21,898 nt of DNA from a virus. The stretch spans positions 1-21,898 of IMG/VR virus record IMGVR_UViG_3300043772_002424; one strand, 5' to 3'. Below, in pieces: positions 3,506-19,367 of the stretch. A program made the translations under genes and the position numbers. Each line of letters starts with the position of its first letter. The stretch's first letter is position 1. A model generated the notes under the pieces. It worked only from the letters and a program-made list of their open reading frames with translations. It ran no database searches and was not told where the DNA came from.

Positions 3506-3804
3506 CGTATGTATCGGCGAGAGATTTGAAACTCAATTGCGTTGACTCTTCTGCGAACCTCCTCAGTTGTGAGGTCGCTTTCTATGACTTTTCTTATCTC
3601 TTTCCTCAGCACGTCCAGCTGAAGAGAGGGATAGAAAGATGGTTCAATAAGAGAGCTGTCTTGTTTTTGACCGGAGAGAAGAGAGAAGCAAAGTTCCTCA
3701 AGTGAGACACCCTGCTCCTCCGCTTGTCGCCCCAGGTGAAAGAAGAGAGTCTCGGGAAGACGGAGGTTTAGATCCCTGAACATTGGTTTGACTCTCTCAA
3801 TCAT
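3502..3804 (-). CDS. Small ribbon-helix-helix (HicB/Arc-like) protein
   Basis: The start is the ATG overlapping the sheath stop (TGATG); a GTG one codon upstream is also possible. The ~100-aa product contains 'RDLNLRLPETLFFHLGRQA' followed by 'EQGVSLEELCFSLLS'. This is a beta strand plus two helices typical of ribbon-helix-helix DNA-binding domains of the Arc/HicB type (residues ~9-45). The C-terminal half is helical and charged, ending in a basic run. Such domains normally bind operators as dimers. Here the gene lies inside the tail operon between sheath and baseplate wedge, an unusual place for a regulator. It could be a late-gene autoregulator, or a structural protein that has reused the fold. 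No toxin gene partner is visible. The fold call is moderate; the function is unknown. Confidence 0.6.
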   Translation of the reverse strand: MIERVKPMFRDLNLRLPETLFFHLGRQAEEQGVSLEELCFSLLSGQKQDSSLIEPSFYPSLQLDVLRKEIRKVIESDLTTEEVRRRVNAIEFQISRRYIR

Positions 3805-6800
3805 CACACGCTACCGTTTCCGAGACCCTGGATGTCCAGTTCGTCTTGCATCTTGCCGATGGCAACACGGATGAGGTCGATCTGGATGCGCTCCAGTGTC
3901 GGCACAGGAGTCACGAACACCTTGGCATTCACGATTCCGTTCTCGAGGGACTCGGGCGGGTTGATCCGGCTGTCGCAGATAACCTGGAAAGCATCGGACG
4001 GGGTTGCTCCGAACAGTGCACCGCGAACGTACAGCTGGTTCAGGATGCTGTTGCCAACCGAGATGATTTGGTTGTAAACAATGCCGAAACCGTCGATCAC
4101 GTTGAAGATCTGGGTGTCGAAAGCACTCCGGAGTGAACCATACACCACGTTTAGAATAACGCGAGTGTTGACGAACTGATACAGGCGCTGCTGAGCATCG
4201 TCAGGATTGACGCGAGTCCGGCCACCCCAGATGAACACCGCGCTCTGCGGGTAACCGGGGAGAGTACGAACGGCGTTGCATCCCTTCGGATTGAGCAGGT
4301 TCTGCTGAGCAGAGTTGATGGGAATCTGAGCAGCCACAGCGTCAGCCAGCTGGTACTTGACACCGGCGGGCGGGAACTGATAGCCCTCAGCACGGTAACG
4401 GCGCAGCGCAACACCAGTCACGTAAAGTGAAGGGGGAATGTACTGACCGGCACCGTTCTCGATCCAAGGACCGTAGAAGGCAATGAAGCCGAAGGGGTTG
4501 AAGTAACGCTGAGAATCGTCAAAGAGACGGTTCACGTTGTCCACACCAGCTTCAATGAAGACAGCCTGAGGAACACCGTTGAAACCAACGCCACGCAGAG
4601 CACGGTCGATGATCTCAGTGGAGGTGATGGCGTCGAAGCGCCACAGACTTGAAGGAACAACCTGCTCAGGTGAGAAGGTCAACTCGACTTGAGCACCGTA
4701 GCAAACTTGGCCAACGGTTGTGAGGTCACCGCCTGCAGAAGCAGCGGCAACAACGGCCCAAGTGTAAGCGGTTCCGTTGTAAACAAGGGCGATCCGGTCA
4801 CCGGCAACTACAGCAAGTCCGCCAGGTCCGACGCCGCTGGCCGTGACGTTGAAGTAGCAACCAACCAGGTACTGTTGCTCAGCCACCAGTTGGGCACCTG
4901 AGGAGCCAACCGGAGCAACACCGGCAGCAGCCAGAGCAACCTGGTAGGCACTTCCAGAAGCAACGGCGAATGAACCTGTGCTTGCGTTGTCAATGCCAGA
5001 CACGTTGAGTGTGTTACCGCCGAAGGAGGAAGGAAGGGTCAGGCCAGTGTCGGTCGCAAGGTAACCCTGCCCGGCATTGTTAACCACGGCAGCAGTCACT
5101 GCGCCGGTTCCATCCACAGTCAGAGTGGCGGTCAGGCCTGAACCAGATCCACCCGAAACAACAACGTTGTTGTAAGTTCCGGCAGGCTTGGAAGAGGCAG
5201 CACCAACCGCAACCAGAGTGGTCGCAGGTCCAACTGTACCCGAGCCAACAACTCCGTTGTAGGTTCCCAGAAGGATGGGGTCAATCGATGGAGTGAAGTA
5301 AGCCTCGGGCTGGAAGAACTGGTCAACGGTCGGAGTGCAGTAAGCATTCAGAACCGCAGCAGCGGGGGAGGGATCCGGGATCACGGTGTTGAGCTTAGGG
5401 AGCCAACCACACTTGGTGCCGGAGCTGATATCCTCACCGTAAGGTGTGATCAGTGACTGACCCAGAGTCAGAGCCGAGTTGTTCAGCCAGATAGAGGTAA
5501 AAGCGTCGGTTGTTGCAACACTTGTGGGGGCAACAGCAGCACTCAGAGCTTGATTCCAGATCGAGTTGGAATCAAACTCATACTTCCGGCCGCGAATCAT
5601 CGGCAGAGTAATCAGTTCATTCGGTGAGATCTGTGTGAGCCCACGGCCCAGCATCCGGCTGTAGAAGATGCTAGGAACGGAGCTGACGGTGCCCGCAGTC
5701 GGGAACGACAGGAAAGCGCTCGTGGTGTAGTTCCCAAGGGAGCTCGCCAGAGCAAAGTTGTTGGCGTCAATAGCCTTGACCCAATAGGGACGGCTAACCA
5801 GCTTTGTGGTGGCGCTCACAAGTGAGGTCACTGAACCGCTGTTGTTAACAGTGATTGCTTGGGTGAAATAGATCACCATTCCACTACGCAAACCGTGTGA
5901 CTGAACGGTGAACTGGGCAGAACCAGCAGGAACAACGGTTCCACCGTAGTTCGAGATCTGAGCAGCAGGGCTCAGCAGGGTACGGCTGTACCAGTTCAGC
6001 AGGTACTGATTGGTGGCGTCCTGAAGAGTCCCGGGCAGGTGGAGGGTGTTCACACCAGCGCCAGAACCAGAAACGTTCTCAATCAGGTCTGAGGTTTGAC
6101 CGTTGATGTCAACAGGGAGATCCCAGTAAGGGTCAACGTAACTCAGAAGGGCAGTGTCACCGGTAGGTGAAGGAACAACAACCGAGCCAACCAGAGGGGT
6201 CAGAACATTCTTGGAACCACCCAGAAGTACAACTTGGTTGTACAAGTTGGACGCATCAGCGGCAGTTGTGGCCAGCATGATGTAGTTCAGTGAGTACTCG
6301 CTGCTTGCGGACAGGTCGTAAGGAGCAGCAACCACGTAAACCTCAGTTCCGGCGAGGCTGATTCCAGTGCTCCCTCCAACAACGTCAACGTTTGCAAAGT
6401 CAGAGCCAACGGCAACGCTGCCAACGGCAACCTTCTGAATAGGAAGAGAAACAGGCCAGTACTGGTCGGAGTCCAGTTCAAACACGCCGTCTACGCCAGT
6501 GGCAACTGCAGTCACGGTGTACTGACCAGCGTCCAGAAGACCAACTTGTGAGGCGTCTGAAACAAGATTCGCAGACTCATTCACAGCAACTTCGGCGCTC
6601 ACTCCGGGCAGCAGGGTCTGGTTGCTCAGGCGGTTGTAGCACACATCGCTTCCAACCCACTCGTAAATGGCGTTGTCAACGAGGTACTTCAGACCTTCCA
6701 GGAGGCAAGAAGCAGCTTTGTGGGGGACGTAATCCTGGTACTTGTTAACGTCAGTCACAAGAAAGGGACCGGGATCAGCCAGGGCCAACCACTTGAAGTT

Positions 6801-7784
6801 GTTGTTCTCGCAGTGAGCAGCAGCAGCAGCACCCACAAGAGCACGACCGGCAGCGTCAAACTGAGCGTAAGCAGTCGGTGTCACCAGGTAACCCTGGTCT
6901 TGCTGACCATCAAACGCAGTGTTGATGCACTGGGTGTAGTCCTGGGGAACGCGCTCCAGGTAGGTCTGACCGCCAACAATGTTGTTCACGTCGTAGGCGT
7001 TCTGCATGAACACGAAGTTGCTTCCAACTGGGAGCACTTCGGTCACCACGGACACGTTGCCATCGAAAGTTGTCGCGGCAATGGTCACATAGCTGTTCTC
7101 AGAGTTGCCTGAAGGGTCCAGATCGTTCACCATCCCGGTGTCACGAACGTAAACCGAGCTATTCACAGCAGGGTTTGACTCAATGGCGGCTGAAACAGCA
7201 GCTGCGATGGCGGCTGAAATCTTGCGGTTGTTGGCTTCATCGCCAGCAACATAGTTGACAGGGACGGTCACGGGGACGCCCAGCCATTCTCCATCGGCAG
7301 TGTAACCGGTGGAACCGTCGCCGGAAACCAGTTTGAGGCCGTTGATGATCATCTGCACGAACACCTTGTCACCTGCCATCAGGGCAGAGGGAAGGTCTGT
7401 GGTGTTGATCTTGGAGGCGGAAGGGAGGAACTCAATCTCAACGATTTGGTTGGGAGTGCCGACGCGAACAACGCGAAGGTCGCCAACCTGAGCATTCTGG
7501 AAGAACTCGTTGACGCAGTTGTAGCTGAGCAGGGGGATCCGGGTATCGGGAACAGTTGAAGTTCCGATGCGAATCAGTTCCTTGTAGTCGTTGAGAGACG
7601 TGACGGGAACGGGGACATTGAAAGGAAACTGAGTTACGGGGACGCCTTCCTCTGTCTCCACAAGCATGTACACGGTGCTGAAGTCAGCGAGGGCTGCATT
7701 AGCAGCACGACCGGCTTGCTCATTGATATAAACTCCGGGTGCTCCAGGGGTTACTCCTGAAGTCCCGAGGGAAAAAGTTGCCAT
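3804..7784 (-). CDS. Tail sheath protein, very large
   Basis: This 1326-aa contractile tail sheath subunit is about two to three times the usual 400-700 aa. ATG 7784 starts 'MATFSLGTSGVTPGAPGVY', the classic sheath N-terminus with PGVY and a following acidic residue; the frame remains open to TTG 7814 but lacks an upstream ATG. The C-terminal ~250 residues carry the conserved fold: 'GCNAVRTLPGYPQSAVFIWG', 'GRTRVNPDD', 'YQFVNTRVILNVV', and a terminal 'VTPVPTLERIQIDLIRV'. The middle is Gly/Ser/Val/Thr-rich and contains an inserted GxGY-type repeat segment (residues ~830-950, nt ~5000-5300) resembling the protein at 12962-13909. The extra domains probably decorate the outside of the sheath. A strong AGGAGG at 7803-7808 lies 18 nt from the ATG, longer than usual. 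A GGGTAAAAC motif lies 92 nt upstream. Confidence 0.96.
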   Translation of the reverse strand: MATFSLGTSGVTPGAPGVYINEQAGRAANAALADFSTVYMLVETEEGVPVTQFPFNVPVPVTSLNDYKELIRIGTSTVPDTRIPLLSYNCVNEFFQNAQVGDLRVVRVGTPNQIVEIEFLPSASKINTTDLPSALMAGDKVFVQMIINGLKLVSGDGSTGYTADGEWLGVPVTVPVNYVAGDEANNRKISAAIAAAVSAAIESNPAVNSSVYVRDTGMVNDLDPSGNSENSYVTIAATTFDGNVSVVTEVLPVGSNFVFMQNAYDVNNIVGGQTYLERVPQDYTQCINTAFDGQQDQGYLVTPTAYAQFDAAGRALVGAAAAAHCENNNFKWLALADPGPFLVTDVNKYQDYVPHKAASCLLEGLKYLVDNAIYEWVGSDVCYNRLSNQTLLPGVSAEVAVNESANLVSDASQVGLLDAGQYTVTAVATGVDGVFELDSDQYWPVSLPIQKVAVGSVAVGSDFANVDVVGGSTGISLAGTEVYVVAAPYDLSASSEYSLNYIMLATTAADASNLYNQVVLLGGSKNVLTPLVGSVVVPSPTGDTALLSYVDPYWDLPVDINGQTSDLIENVSGSGAGVNTLHLPGTLQDATNQYLLNWYSRTLLSPAAQISNYGGTVVPAGSAQFTVQSHGLRSGMVIYFTQAITVNNSGSVTSLVSATTKLVSRPYWVKAIDANNFALASSLGNYTTSAFLSFPTAGTVSSVPSIFYSRMLGRGLTQISPNELITLPMIRGRKYEFDSNSIWNQALSAAVAPTSVATTDAFTSIWLNNSALTLGQSLITPYGEDISSGTKCGWLPKLNTVIPDPSPAAAVLNAYCTPTVDQFFQPEAYFTPSIDPILLGTYNGVVGSGTVGPATTLVAVGAASSKPAGTYNNVVVSGGSGSGLTATLTVDGTGAVTAAVVNNAGQGYLATDTGLTLPSSFGGNTLNVSGIDNASTGSFAVASGSAYQVALAAAGVAPVGSSGAQLVAEQQYLVGCYFNVTASGVGPGGLAVVAGDRIALVYNGTAYTWAVVAAASAGGDLTTVGQVCYGAQVELTFSPEQVVPSSLWRFDAITSTEIIDRALRGVGFNGVPQAVFIEAGVDNVNRLFDDSQRYFNPFGFIAFYGPWIENGAGQYIPPSLYVTGVALRRYRAEGYQFPPAGVKYQLADAVAAQIPINSAQQNLLNPKGCNAVRTLPGYPQSAVFIWGGRTRVNPDDAQQRLYQFVNTRVILNVVYGSLRSAFDTQIFNVIDGFGIVYNQIISVGNSILNQLYVRGALFGATPSDAFQVICDSRINPPESLENGIVNAKVFVTPVPTLERIQIDLIRVAIGKMQDELDIQGLGNGSV

Positions 7785-7876
7785 GTTATCACAGGTGTGT
7801 GCCCTCCTTTTCAACCTTGCTACCGGTGAGGGAAGTCGCCGTTTAGTCTCCGCAGAGGCAAAGTCTACTTACAGAA

Positions 7877-15722: not shown

Positions 15723-17663
15723 TCACAGTTTGACCTCCGTTACTGCAGCGACTTTGGCACCGTGCCCTCCGGGTTTGCCGGGTTTGGCAGAGACCGGGAA
15801 GAGTTCAACTTTCTTTTTGCGAGTTGAGACCCAGGGGACGGTGTAAGCACCCTCCCCGAAGTGAATGAGCGTGGCACCTTCTGGTACGAGTTTCTTTCCT
15901 TTCGACGTTACCTTGCACAGGTCTTCGCCCGAGACCGCCATTGCCTTGAGTTGGTCGCCAAGTGTAAAGACCACGAGGTATTTGCGTGTGGCAACCTCAG
16001 TTTCTTTCTTTGCGAGGAGGACCTCAGAGTAAGAGTCCCCGAGAGCACCTTTGAATGAAGAAGGAACTTTCTTCAGTGTCCCGTCTGCGAGAACTGCAAT
16101 GAGTTTGTCATTCTTTTCAAGGATGAGTGCGCCGCGAGGTCCCTTTGCTTGAGTAACGAGTCCTTTCTTGGTGTCGACCAGAAGGAAGCGGGGTTTTGCA
16201 ACGGTCGCCGCCACCCGCGAGGATCCCTTCTCCACTGTCAGACTTTCTGGCGGATCAATCAGTGCTGAGCGGCGTTTCTCACCGTATCTCACGCCGATTG
16301 CTTTGATTTCTTTGGTCATGTATGCTTTGCGCACCTTGCCGTCTTTGATCAAAGTGCTCAACTCAGCAATGCGCTCTTTCAGAGTGCCCTCCTCAGTTGC
16401 CAACTCTTCGGAGTCCAGATTGGTCAGAGCACGGAGTTTCATCTCAAGGATTGCTTGCGCTTGCGCCTTGCTAAACTTGAGTGCTCGGTTTGAGACAAGT
16501 TCAATCAGTGCTTCCTTTGGTGAAGCAGCAGCGCGAATGATTTTTATGACCAGATCAATCTTGTCAATTGCCTTGAGGTAACCTCGCACAATCTCTAGGC
16601 GGGACTCAGCCGCATTCAACTCGTGGGCAAACTGCACACCCAACCGATCCATCCGCCATGCCTGCCAACGCGCAAGAAGTTCACTTGGCGAGAGTTCAAC
16701 AGGTCGAGTCCCGTCCACAACCAGCAACCGCGCCGAATACTTAGAGTCCAGGTCGGAGTAATGGTAGAGTTGCCGAGTGAGAAGGTTGACGTTGGCCCCA
16801 GACTTGAGAGTAACCGTGAGACGGTCTCCCGTGAGATCAGAGTCGTCACGGACATTGCTGATTCCATCAATGTTTCCTTTGTCAAGTGCGTCTTTGATTT
16901 GTTGCCCGATCTTCTCAGGGTTTGTTCCTTGCGGCAGATTTGTGAATACGATTTCAGTTCTTGCCTTCCGCCCTGTCCCAGTTTCAGAAGTCTCGCACTT
17001 GGCACGGAGTCGCAGAGTGCCTGCCCCGGTCTTCACATAGTTCTCAAGACCCTCGTCCTGGATAATGTCGCAACCAGTAGGGAAGGAAGGAGTGAGTGGG
17101 GTGCCTTTGGTGATTGCTTCGCAGATGTCCCTGAGAGAATGCGGTGGAATCTTCGTTGCGAATCCTACGCCGATCCCGTCCTGCCCGTTGATTAGGACTG
17201 CGGGCACTTTGACGTTGAGTTCGACAGGTTCTTGGAGAGAACCGTCATAATTGTCGCGAGTTGTCCACGTTTCGGAGTGATCTAGGAGACAATCCCACGC
17301 AAATGGTGTGAGTTTCGCCTCAGTGTATCGGGAGGCAGCGGCACCATCTACGGAGGACCCCCAGTTGCCTTGGCCGTCAATGAATGGGAGGTTATTGTTC
17401 CAGGGCGCTGCCAAGGTGACCATCACGCCGTAGGCACCGCCATGCGGGTGCAACTTGCCCATTGTCTCCCCCTCGACGCGGGCCGACTTCATGTACTTCC
17501 CGTCAGGGCGCATCCCCATCCACTTCATTGCCGTCAGGACTCGGCGTTGCGCGGGTTTGAGACCATCTGTGAGGGATGGGATGGCGCGGCCAATGAGCAC
17601 TGCCATGCTGTACGCAAGGTAATCCTCCTTGACCTGGGTCGTCAGGTTGGTGGTTGTGTCCAT
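15723..17663 (-). CDS. Type IIA topoisomerase subunit A (GyrA/ParC-like)
   Basis: This 646-aa subunit cuts and rejoins DNA for replication and supercoil relief. The N-terminal breakage-reunion domain is clear: 'YLAYSMAVLIGRAIPSLTDG', 'LKPAQRRVL', 'GKLHPHGGAYG', then 'GAAASRYTEAKL' with catalytic Y113 preceded by the conserved Arg. 'LINGQDGIGVGFATKIPPHS' follows. A long coiled-coil region is around 340-470. The C-terminal ~160 residues look like a shortened beta-pinwheel with a degenerate GyrA-box-like 'TQAKGPRGALIL'. GyrA is ~875 aa and ParC ~750 aa, so the C-terminal wrap domain is cut down and wrapping may be weak. No GyrB/ParE ATPase subunit is present in this window; it must be elsewhere in the phage or supplied by the host. 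A promoter and terminator precede it. Confidence 0.95.
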   Translation of the reverse strand: MDTTTNLTTQVKEDYLAYSMAVLIGRAIPSLTDGLKPAQRRVLTAMKWMGMRPDGKYMKSARVEGETMGKLHPHGGAYGVMVTLAAPWNNNLPFIDGQGNWGSSVDGAAASRYTEAKLTPFAWDCLLDHSETWTTRDNYDGSLQEPVELNVKVPAVLINGQDGIGVGFATKIPPHSLRDICEAITKGTPLTPSFPTGCDIIQDEGLENYVKTGAGTLRLRAKCETSETGTGRKARTEIVFTNLPQGTNPEKIGQQIKDALDKGNIDGISNVRDDSDLTGDRLTVTLKSGANVNLLTRQLYHYSDLDSKYSARLLVVDGTRPVELSPSELLARWQAWRMDRLGVQFAHELNAAESRLEIVRGYLKAIDKIDLVIKIIRAAASPKEALIELVSNRALKFSKAQAQAILEMKLRALTNLDSEELATEEGTLKERIAELSTLIKDGKVRKAYMTKEIKAIGVRYGEKRRSALIDPPESLTVEKGSSRVAATVAKPRFLLVDTKKGLVTQAKGPRGALILEKNDKLIAVLADGTLKKVPSSFKGALGDSYSEVLLAKKETEVATRKYLVVFTLGDQLKAMAVSGEDLCKVTSKGKKLVPEGATLIHFGEGAYTVPWVSTRKKKVELFPVSAKPGKPGGHGAKVAAVTEVKL

Positions 17664-17682: not shown

Positions 17683-17710
17683 AGTTTAGGTTGTTGGCTG
17701 GTGCTGTAAA
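17683..17710 (-). promoter_or_regulatory. Candidate promoter of topoisomerase gene (TTTACA-N16-TAAACT)
   Basis: The minus strand carries TTTACA (17705-17710), a 16-bp spacer and TAAACT (17683-17688), 19 nt before ATG 17663. It resembles the polymerase and 15647-operon promoters and lies directly after an intrinsic terminator. Confidence 0.5.
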
Positions 17711-17764
17711 TGCTTGGGTCGTGCTAAAGGTTTGATGAAGGATTACTTTGGAAAAATTCGCCGC

Positions 17765-17803
17765 AAAAAATTCGGGACTCGGGATTTTGAGATTCGGTCC
17801 CGA
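17765..17803 (-). terminator. Intrinsic terminator between hairpin array and topoisomerase gene
   Basis: The minus strand forms TCGGGAC (17797-17803) paired with GTCCCGA (17772-17778), 7 perfect base pairs. The run A-TTTTTT (17771-17765) follows. A second TCCCGA in the loop allows an alternative shorter stem. It would end transcripts coming through the repeat region before the topoisomerase promoter. Confidence 0.6.
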
Positions 17804-17927
17804 CGATAAAAATTCACCCGACCCCTGATGGTCCCGACTTCCGGGGGTTGCCGCGTTAAAGCACTGAGAGCACTGAGGAATCTTCATTGCTTCTTGCGCT
17901 GATCACTGCAGAGAATGCCCGCAGGGT

Positions 17928-17964
17928 GCGGTTGGATTTACAGACTCACACCCGTCCAACCCGC
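17928..17964. other. Stable hairpin upstream of the topoisomerase region
   Basis: GCGGTTGGA (17928-17936) pairs with TCCAACCCGC (17955-17964), nine pairs with one bulged base and an 18-nt loop. A smaller CTGC/GCAG hairpin (17906-17909 with 17921-17924) lies beside it. It could be part of a leader RNA or a replication structure. No RNA family is recognised. Confidence 0.45.
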
Positions 17965-18058
17965 CCCAAAATCCGCCCCCATCTCCTAAATAATCCTCCC
18001 GACCTCCAGGGGGCCCGGTGACCGCCGTGAAAGTTTGACCGTCGCGGCACTTTGCGGT

Positions 18059-18193
18059 TTACAGCCCTTCCACGAGTCCCCTCCGGACGGCTTCCTCACA
18101 GAGCGCCGTAAACTCCTCGGTGTCTGTTGCCTCCCCGAGCGCCGCCCACAGTTCCCCGATTGTCATTACCCGAAGGCCCTTTTCCTTTTCCAT
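18059..18193 (-). CDS. Small 44-aa protein inside the hairpin array
   Basis: ATG 18193 opens a 44-aa frame ending TAA at 18059. The product starts 'MEKEKGLRVMTIGELWAALG' and continues acidic and helical ('EEFTALCEEAVRRGLVEGL'). Its amphipathic, well-formed helices look like a genuine small protein rather than random translation. A TATGAT hexamer lies 6 nt before the ATG, so it may be weakly expressed or leaderless. The flanking and antisense sequence contains CCCGA repeat words. Function unknown. Confidence 0.5.
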   Translation of the reverse strand: MEKEKGLRVMTIGELWAALGEATDTEEFTALCEEAVRRGLVEGL

Positions 18194-18715
18194 AGATACA
18201 TCATACACGTTCCCCGACCGTTCCCCCGAGGGGAACCGTGCATTGACACTTTTCTTAATGACCCTTCAGGGTCCCGACCGTTCCCCTCCGGGAAACCCCG
18301 ACCTTCTGGGGTCCCGACCCCTGCAGAGTCCCGATTCTACAGGTCCCCGAAATTATCGGGATTATTTTCCCGAGGGAAGTTCCCGAGTTGCAAACTCCCC
18401 GATTTTACTCGGGTCTCGAATACCCACCCGTGCCCAGAGTCCTCGGTTTTGCGGAGTGCGGATTTGCTTGCTGGAAGACTCTATTTCCCCGAGTTTTACG
18501 GAGTTTAGAATACCCGAGTTTTGCCGACTTTGCTGTCTGGAAGGCACCTTTGCACAATGCCCGAACGTTACCCGGGCGCACAGTGCCCGACCCCTGGAGT
18601 ACCCGAACGCAAGGTCCCCGACCCTGAGGCACCGGCCCTGTGTGTCACCAACAAATACGGCAAAACCCGACCTTTGCAAGTCACCACCTGCAGAGATCGG
18701 GTATTTTTCGGGAGT

Positions 18716-19267
18716 CTAGAAATCCTCCGTATTTTCGGTACTCTCAGAATCCTCGGTATCAGGGTCCTGAAACACAAATTGGCTAATTTCCTCGATAAAT
18801 TCCCCTGGCGACAACGTCATGTAAGCATCCTTCATTCTTTCCAGCTCTGCCTCCAGATCAAAGTCAGGGAACATTTCGGCCTCTGCCTGAAACTCCCCGA
18901 GTGCGACAAGGAATTGCTCTCGACAGAAATGGAGCCAACGCTTGTACTGAGAGGGAGGAATCTTTCCAACCCATGCGGGAGAAATCGTATGAAGCCACTT
19001 CGGCAACGAGTCCTTCTCGAGTTTGTTCAAGAGGGACTTAGCACGAACGACAGCATTCCGCCAGTTGTCCACGTCCAGGGCATTGACAACTTCTTGCAAC
19101 TGCACCTTCGTTTTTTCAAACTCCAGACGCTCCCTATCTATTTTCCGCTTTGCATTTGGCACCGTTTCCGCACCTACGTGATCCAGTAGATCCTGGTGGC
19201 GACGCACCATTGCCTGAACCTGCTTGACTAGGAACTCGCTATCGTCGTCGCTCTTTTTCTTGGGCAT
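18716..19267 (-). CDS. Unknown coiled-coil-rich protein, ~183 aa
   Basis: The product beginning 'MPKKKSDDDSEFLVKQVQAM' is largely helical, with 'RERLEFEKTKVQLQEVVNAL' and Trp/Lys-rich 'LPKWLHTISPAW'. It ends in an acidic Asp/Glu/Ser/Thr tail. ATG 19267 is chosen because the upstream extension (open to a GTG at 19363, with another ATG at 19318) has poor, low-complexity sequence. No start has a good ribosome site, and a perfect inverted repeat (19281-19296) lies just before ATG 19267. A promoter at 19368-19394 precedes it. Downstream lies the hairpin array. No function recognised. Confidence 0.7.
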   Translation of the reverse strand: MPKKKSDDDSEFLVKQVQAMVRRHQDLLDHVGAETVPNAKRKIDRERLEFEKTKVQLQEVVNALDVDNWRNAVVRAKSLLNKLEKDSLPKWLHTISPAWVGKIPPSQYKRWLHFCREQFLVALGEFQAEAEMFPDFDLEAELERMKDAYMTLSPGEFIEEISQFVFQDPDTEDSESTENTEDF

Positions 19268-19280
19268 TGCACTTAATCGC

Positions 19281-19296
19281 GTGAAGATTTCTTCAC
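19281..19296. repeat. Perfect inverted repeat before the 18716-19267 gene
   Basis: GTGAAGATTTCTTCAC: seven complementary bases per arm with a 2-nt centre, 14 nt upstream of ATG 19267. It may be an operator or fold in the mRNA to control start choice. Confidence 0.4.
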
Positions 19297-19367
19297 CCTC
19301 CACCCCCACGGCTGTCATGCCTCTGAGGGGTGGGTGGTGAAATGTTCGCTGAGACTCCAGCACTGTT

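Follow-up and report, generated by a model that had tools for sequence, protein, structure and literature searches.

A lineage-specific array of short one-directional repeats beside conserved non-coding blocks upstream of the topoisomerase gene in S-CBWM1-like cyanophages

Control loci with fast-changing repeats are already known, and several described systems resemble the locus analyzed here. Iteron arrays, known from plasmid and phage origins, consist of many copies of a short one-directional motif, with a conserved AT-rich block alongside and replication genes close by, and their motif differs between lineages. In an iteron-type origin the motif is about 15-22 bp long and recurs with regular helical phasing. 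Chi-like directional recombination motifs may provide a second analogy, as they too are short, one-directional, lineage-specific and clustered in one place. Among phages, PMC4503421 names the promoter-early-stem-loop (PeSL) cassettes of T4-type phages (its references 36-37), in which stem-loops lie in a shuffling early-gene region, and reports for the cyanophage S-PM2 an 'ORFanage', a hypervariable small-ORF region next to an inferred packaging cut region and hence beside a proposed genome-end landmark. The parts of that article dealing with S-PM2 describe no repeat array there, and its ends were inferred from read density, whereas the present locus is known from contigs alone.

The locus examined in this work shares with these systems a short, repeated, one-directional motif near replication genes and a hypervariable small-ORF region in its relatives. 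What is unusual about it is the combination of a five-letter motif, irregular spacing and partial palindromy with the replacement of that motif, in related phages, by other one-directional motifs.

The TCGGG array and its genomic setting

The stretch of DNA analyzed, hereafter the window, comprises positions 1 to 21,898 (21,898 nt) of the IMG/VR record IMGVR_UViG_3300043772_002424, and this 21.9-kb contig represents part of an S-CBWM1-like (Aokuangvirus) cyanophage. Phage families account for its portal, protease and neck genes, its DNA polymerase is of the gamma type, as in S-TIM5 and Mic1, and is 58% identical to that of S-CBWM1, and the topoisomerase II subunit shares 47% identity with that of S-CBWM1 and 58-77% with those of a set of IMG/VR contigs, which we define on this basis as close relatives. 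No relative of the topoisomerase was found in host genomes. S-CBWM1 has a large tail sheath gene, and by this analogy alone a very large ORF of the window (3804-7814, 1336 aa) may encode a tail sheath. Because the main genes of the contig all lie on the minus strand, the array motif, CCCGA on the plus strand, is read as TCGGG upstream of the topoisomerase on the coding strand. The features of the region are as follows.

15723..17663, minus strand: DNA topoisomerase II subunit (GyrA/ParC type), assigned by protein similarity
17683..17710, minus strand: promoter-like pair TTTACA-16-TAAACT ahead of the topoisomerase, from a promoter scan
17748..17804, minus strand: AT-rich block D with motif copies inside, the best match of its profile (E 0.0036 for the 22 kb searched)
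17797..17837, minus strand: three further motif copies beside block D, from the motif count
17910..18015, minus strand: block C, weakly recognizable, from alignment and profile
18059..18193, minus strand: possible early ORF of 44 aa, leaderless, MEKEKGLRVMTIGELWAALGEATDTEEFTALCEEAVRRGLVEGL, its ATG closely preceded by TATGAT
18134..18670, minus strand: core of the TCGGG array, 20 irregularly spaced copies with 15-17 nt as the modal interval, from a repeat scan
18213..18402, minus strand: hairpin-rich part of the array, its units being small imperfect palindromes (local folding z -4.7/-5.0 against within-unit shuffles)
18217..18239, minus strand: strong hairpin with 10-nt arms and a 3-nt loop, 5′ of the TATGAT box, from an inverted-repeat search
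18488..18670, minus strand: second part of the array, with the motif and no hairpin excess (z -0.2/+0.7)
18662..18705, minus strand: larger imperfect hairpin with 20-nt arms, a possible terminator, from an inverted-repeat search and folding
18716..19363, minus strand: gene encoding 215 aa, located upstream of the array; homologues seen by eye in L009 and L031

The array sits between the 215-aa gene and the topoisomerase. A search for the former among viral contigs returned no confirmed relative beyond the homologues seen by eye, and the larger hairpin directly follows its stop codon, with TTTT next on the sense strand. Phage and plasmid records yielded no DNA match to the array region.

An earlier note on this DNA, made from its letters alone, had reported 24 CCCGA pentamers between 17797 and 18715, and the count, on the plus strand, is exact. 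Over both strands of the whole window the pentamer occurs 87 times, against 52 ± 7 in shuffled sequences, and a scan of every 600-nt stretch places the array as the top repeat window of the contig. The 686 nt from 18030 to 18715 contain 20 sense copies of TCGGG; the commonest 5-mer of the shuffles averages 5.4 copies there, and none of 200 shuffles reached 20 copies of any 5-mer. Between 18200 and 18715 the motif is found 17 times in sense and 4 times in antisense, so that, as expected of an iteron-type origin, a single motif is repeated directly along one strand. The segment from 17797 to 18133 holds only 4 copies, together with the conserved C and D blocks and other sequence. Intervals between copies range from 12 to 165 nt. 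The spacing of 15-17 nt that the note had called dominant is indeed enriched in the 20-copy core (6 intervals against 1.5 expected, p=0.0016), but it is the mode of a distribution with no regular period, accounting for 7 of the 23 intervals (5 of them exactly 16 nt). With a core of only 5-7 nt, irregular spacing and a minority of intervals near the mode, the array departs from iterons in length and phasing, and its skew, described below, has the sign opposite to that of an origin.

The description of a real, degenerate, non-coding array next to the topoisomerase was borne out, and the statement that it takes up the whole of the largest non-coding gap comes close, apart from the possible 44-aa ORF (18193-18059, minus strand) inside it. 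This ORF contains three motif copies, and a search for homologues found none; by eye, its box-to-ATG layout is like that of some small ORFs of relatives. In L031 and L033, some early ORFs have a -10 box so near the ATG that their mRNA looks leaderless. A decayed protein gene, the identity that the note had set against its own reading, was not what we found: 32% of the intervals are divisible by three, no residual frame can be seen, and translated array pieces show no similarity better than chance to the loci of relatives. The stretch from 17797 to 18715 is therefore non-coding by its spacing and has no protein relatives, whereas in many coding repeats that share the motif elsewhere 100% of the intervals are divisible by three. 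Among the matches listed, dense CCCGA clusters elsewhere in viral contigs are coding repeats in threes or other repeat types, and the match in L013 is an unrelated GTCCCGACC/TAGGGAC cluster. CRISPR arrays also consist of many short repeats, but here the repeat is 5 nt long and its intervals vary over the range given above, which supports the earlier rejection of that identity; neither a conserved repeat of CRISPR length nor near-identical repeats of at least 20 nt with unique spacers of constant length occur. No canonical G-quadruplex motif with GGG spacers is present on either strand.

Folding of the array

The region 18200-18715 folds better than shuffled sequences (z -4.7 sense, -4.0 antisense), and local folding in 18200-18420 exceeds shuffles with z between -3.5 and -3.8, the excess being about equal on both strands. 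To dissect this signal, the motifs were held fixed, the letters were shuffled within units and local folding was compared. The claim that the segments between motifs are small inverted repeats is borne out in 18213-18402, where z is about -5. It fails in 18488-18670, where z is about 0, and many units, taken singly, form no fold. Shuffling the order of the units barely alters the energy, and the symmetry is therefore mostly inside units. Conservation of arm pairing in the face of changing arm sequence, also put forward in the note, retains weak support in the 18213-18402 part and is not general, since exchange of arms between units gave borderline results (p 0.02-0.08 within units). Palindromes centered on CCC, instead of between motifs, were likewise borderline only (p 0.04-0.13).

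Folding beyond shuffles on both strands would be compatible with a structured non-coding RNA, or a leader transcript, composed of many small hairpins, one of the options named in the note. However, the excess is limited to 18213-18402 and about equal on the two strands, Rfam covariance models gave no match to the region at gathering score, and the corresponding tracts of L006 and L034 fold little or no better than shuffles. The neighboring conserved block C has no consensus RNA structure and folds no better than shuffled sequence, and it is therefore treated as a DNA element. We consider an RNA function quite improbable.

Conserved blocks and lineage-specific tracts in relatives

Two non-coding blocks, C and D, are conserved ahead of the topoisomerase in about a dozen relatives (L002, L004, L006-L009 and L029-L034, in every case upstream of that gene). 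Profiles built without the window recover C in 12 loci and D in 9, and the order of the locus is array tract, block C, AT-rich block D and topoisomerase/polymerase operon. Block C follows the pattern GGGTCCCTTTT...TACGGG...GCANGT...CCCCCGCC; its profile has a best match in the window at 17956-17923, in the syntenic place and on the same strand, and the match is weak (E 0.41). The profile of block D has its first match in the window at 17804-17748, likewise at the expected position and on the minus strand. A search of the viral collection with the strict C pattern returned four contigs only, three of them already known and the fourth, L242, repeating the L007 sequence by eye. Neither block has a match in Rfam or a description in the literature searched, and inspection by eye of S-CBWM1 ahead of its topoisomerase revealed no such gap and no C or D block.

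The conserved block order, the strand-directional motifs and the position of D just upstream of the promoter-like site would suit an upstream regulatory region of the topoisomerase-polymerase operon, in which C, D and the repeats would bind a transcription or sigma factor. Promoter-like matches, however, are at chance level (1 found, 0.8 expected), 20 copies in 500 bp far exceed the usual operators, and in some relatives a small basic ORF or a large ORF intervenes between D and the topoisomerase; we regard this reading as unlikely. A small basic protein ending in GPMGWW is encoded directly before the topoisomerase in L004, L006 and L034, and was not seen in the window.

Immediately upstream of C, several relatives have a non-coding tract of 0.4-1.4 kb. 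None of the relatives found carries the TCGGG/CCCGA array, and the commonest motif of the tract differs by lineage. AGGTC occupies the tract site in L004 and L006, with forward:reverse counts of 18:1 and 17:0, and weaker tracts are formed by TTTGTTG in L009 (6:0) and TAAATAC in L033 (6:0); in all four, the tract motif is rare or absent elsewhere in the same locus. In a contig-wide scan the tract ranks first at both word lengths for the window, L004 and L006. At k=7 first rank extends to L033 (barely), L009, L031 and L002, the top word in the last three lying towards the early-gene cassettes and outside the tract itself. No strong tract emerged from the scan in L007, L008, L030 or L032, all of which have block C, and the strong cases are three genomes, not all. 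The 1.3-kb non-coding tracts upstream of C in L004 (1260-2650) and L006 (330-1620) have a GC content of 66-68%, and the genes of these contigs are nearer 50%.

The locus separates a variable early small-ORF region from the replication and structural genes, and in L033 some 9 kb of small early ORFs fill a gap that measures one kilobase in the window. Runs of such ORFs are seen in L030 (1-1600), L032 (2500-3950), L031 (900-1870) and L002 (1-1100), where by eye they carry hairpins (e.g. GTAGTACnnnGTACTAC) and sigma70-like promoters. These hairpin-promoter-small ORF cassettes recall PeSL cassettes, and the window retains one possible ORF of the kind, with a hairpin and TATGAT, so that the array hairpins could be degenerate relatives of T4-type PeSL cassettes, left from early genes that this phage lost. 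Yet a PeSL cassette has an early sigma70 promoter with each stem-loop, whereas the units of the array have neither a promoter nor a gene each, its promoter content shows no excess, its 15-17 nt spacing is too short for cassettes and its motif is not common to the cassettes of relatives. A PeSL ancestry is very hard to credit on these grounds.

Skew, contig ends and the role of the locus

On the coding strand, GC skew passes from positive values upstream of the locus to negative ones downstream, with gene orientation unchanged. The cumulative maximum falls at 17945 in the window, within block C, and lies at most about 0.2 kb from C in L008 and about 1.6-1.8 kb from it in L007 and L009. In L032 and L033, with early small-ORF cassettes in between, it is about 6-8 kb (up to 8.4 kb) upstream. 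A cumulative maximum usually marks a terminus, and an origin normally gives a minimum. Cumulative skew, which the note had suggested as a check for an origin, returned a maximum and no minimum in the window. Transcription-linked mutation is an alternative cause of the skew switch.

Contigs also tend to break here: 9 of the 16 close contigs end at most 3 kb upstream of the topoisomerase (2.0 expected, P 2e-5), and 0 of the 16 end within 3 kb downstream. L004 runs past the end of its sibling L003, the overlap there being identical by eye. Their differing ends rule out a fixed physical genome end as the cause, and the breaks are therefore best read as assembly breaks at a repeat or hypervariable region.

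Our leading interpretation, a tentative one, is that the locus is a conserved control element at the level of DNA, that its iteron-like repeats are quickly replaced, and that it would act in replication or packaging. The TCGGG excess, the AGGTC, TTTGTTG and TAAATAC tracts of relatives, block D and the C/D synteny, the skew switch, the contig breaks and the boundary between gene regions count for it; the skew polarity, the lack of gap and blocks in S-CBWM1, the C-bearing relatives with no tract, the differing ends of L003 and L004 and the weak block C match in the window count against it. Under this interpretation, the array would be the form that a fast-evolving tract takes in this phage, next to a non-coding locus conserved in S-CBWM1-like cyanophages. 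A DNA-binding protein of phage or host would recognize its repeated short motifs, and the locus would act in cis in replication (as origin or terminus) or in packaging and concatemer processing. Where the tract contains small palindromes, these may help strands to extrude or may have arisen from the way the repeats spread.

An origin or a packaging site, both among the options of the earlier note, would be compatible with the C and D blocks, the skew switch and the contig breaks; the missing skew minimum speaks against the former. Because of the skew sign, termination or recombination-dependent steps are likelier than classical origin firing, and a terminus or packaging role fits the skew maximum better than an origin. 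It is possible, though doubtful, that in S-CBWM1-like cyanophages this locus is a replication terminus or a packaging site at which each lineage renews the recognition motif, with 6-20 one-directional copies of 5-7 nt beside the two conserved blocks, co-evolving with a putative binding protein (initiator, terminase or host nuclease).

Nearly as likely as a control locus is passive growth of mini-repeats, in which palindrome-prone motifs would multiply, with no function, by slippage or template switching in a hypervariable insertion hotspot, each lineage growing its own motif. Such growth agrees with the different motif of each lineage, with the irregular spacing, with the absence of the tract from several relatives and with a gap length that differs by about 9 kb among them, and motif copies inside both block D and the possible 44-aa ORF fit a spread regardless of function. 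It accounts less readily for the motifs of L004, L006, L009 and L033, which are strictly one-directional, yet separated by differing spacers, since slippage alone yields one-directional motifs only for head-to-tail copies. Nor does it predict the over-representation of 15-17 nt spacing or a position fixed beside conserved blocks in at least 3 genomes.

To our knowledge, hardly any uncultured cyanophage has a known replication origin, terminus or packaging site. The conserved block pair and its lineage-specific tract provide a concrete place at which to map them. If a control locus renewed by lineage is indeed what these phages carry, it would correspond, among phages, to iterons with fast turnover or to sites of the Chi type, and if the motif changes along with its binding protein, the group would constitute a natural series for the study of co-evolution between a DNA site and its reader.
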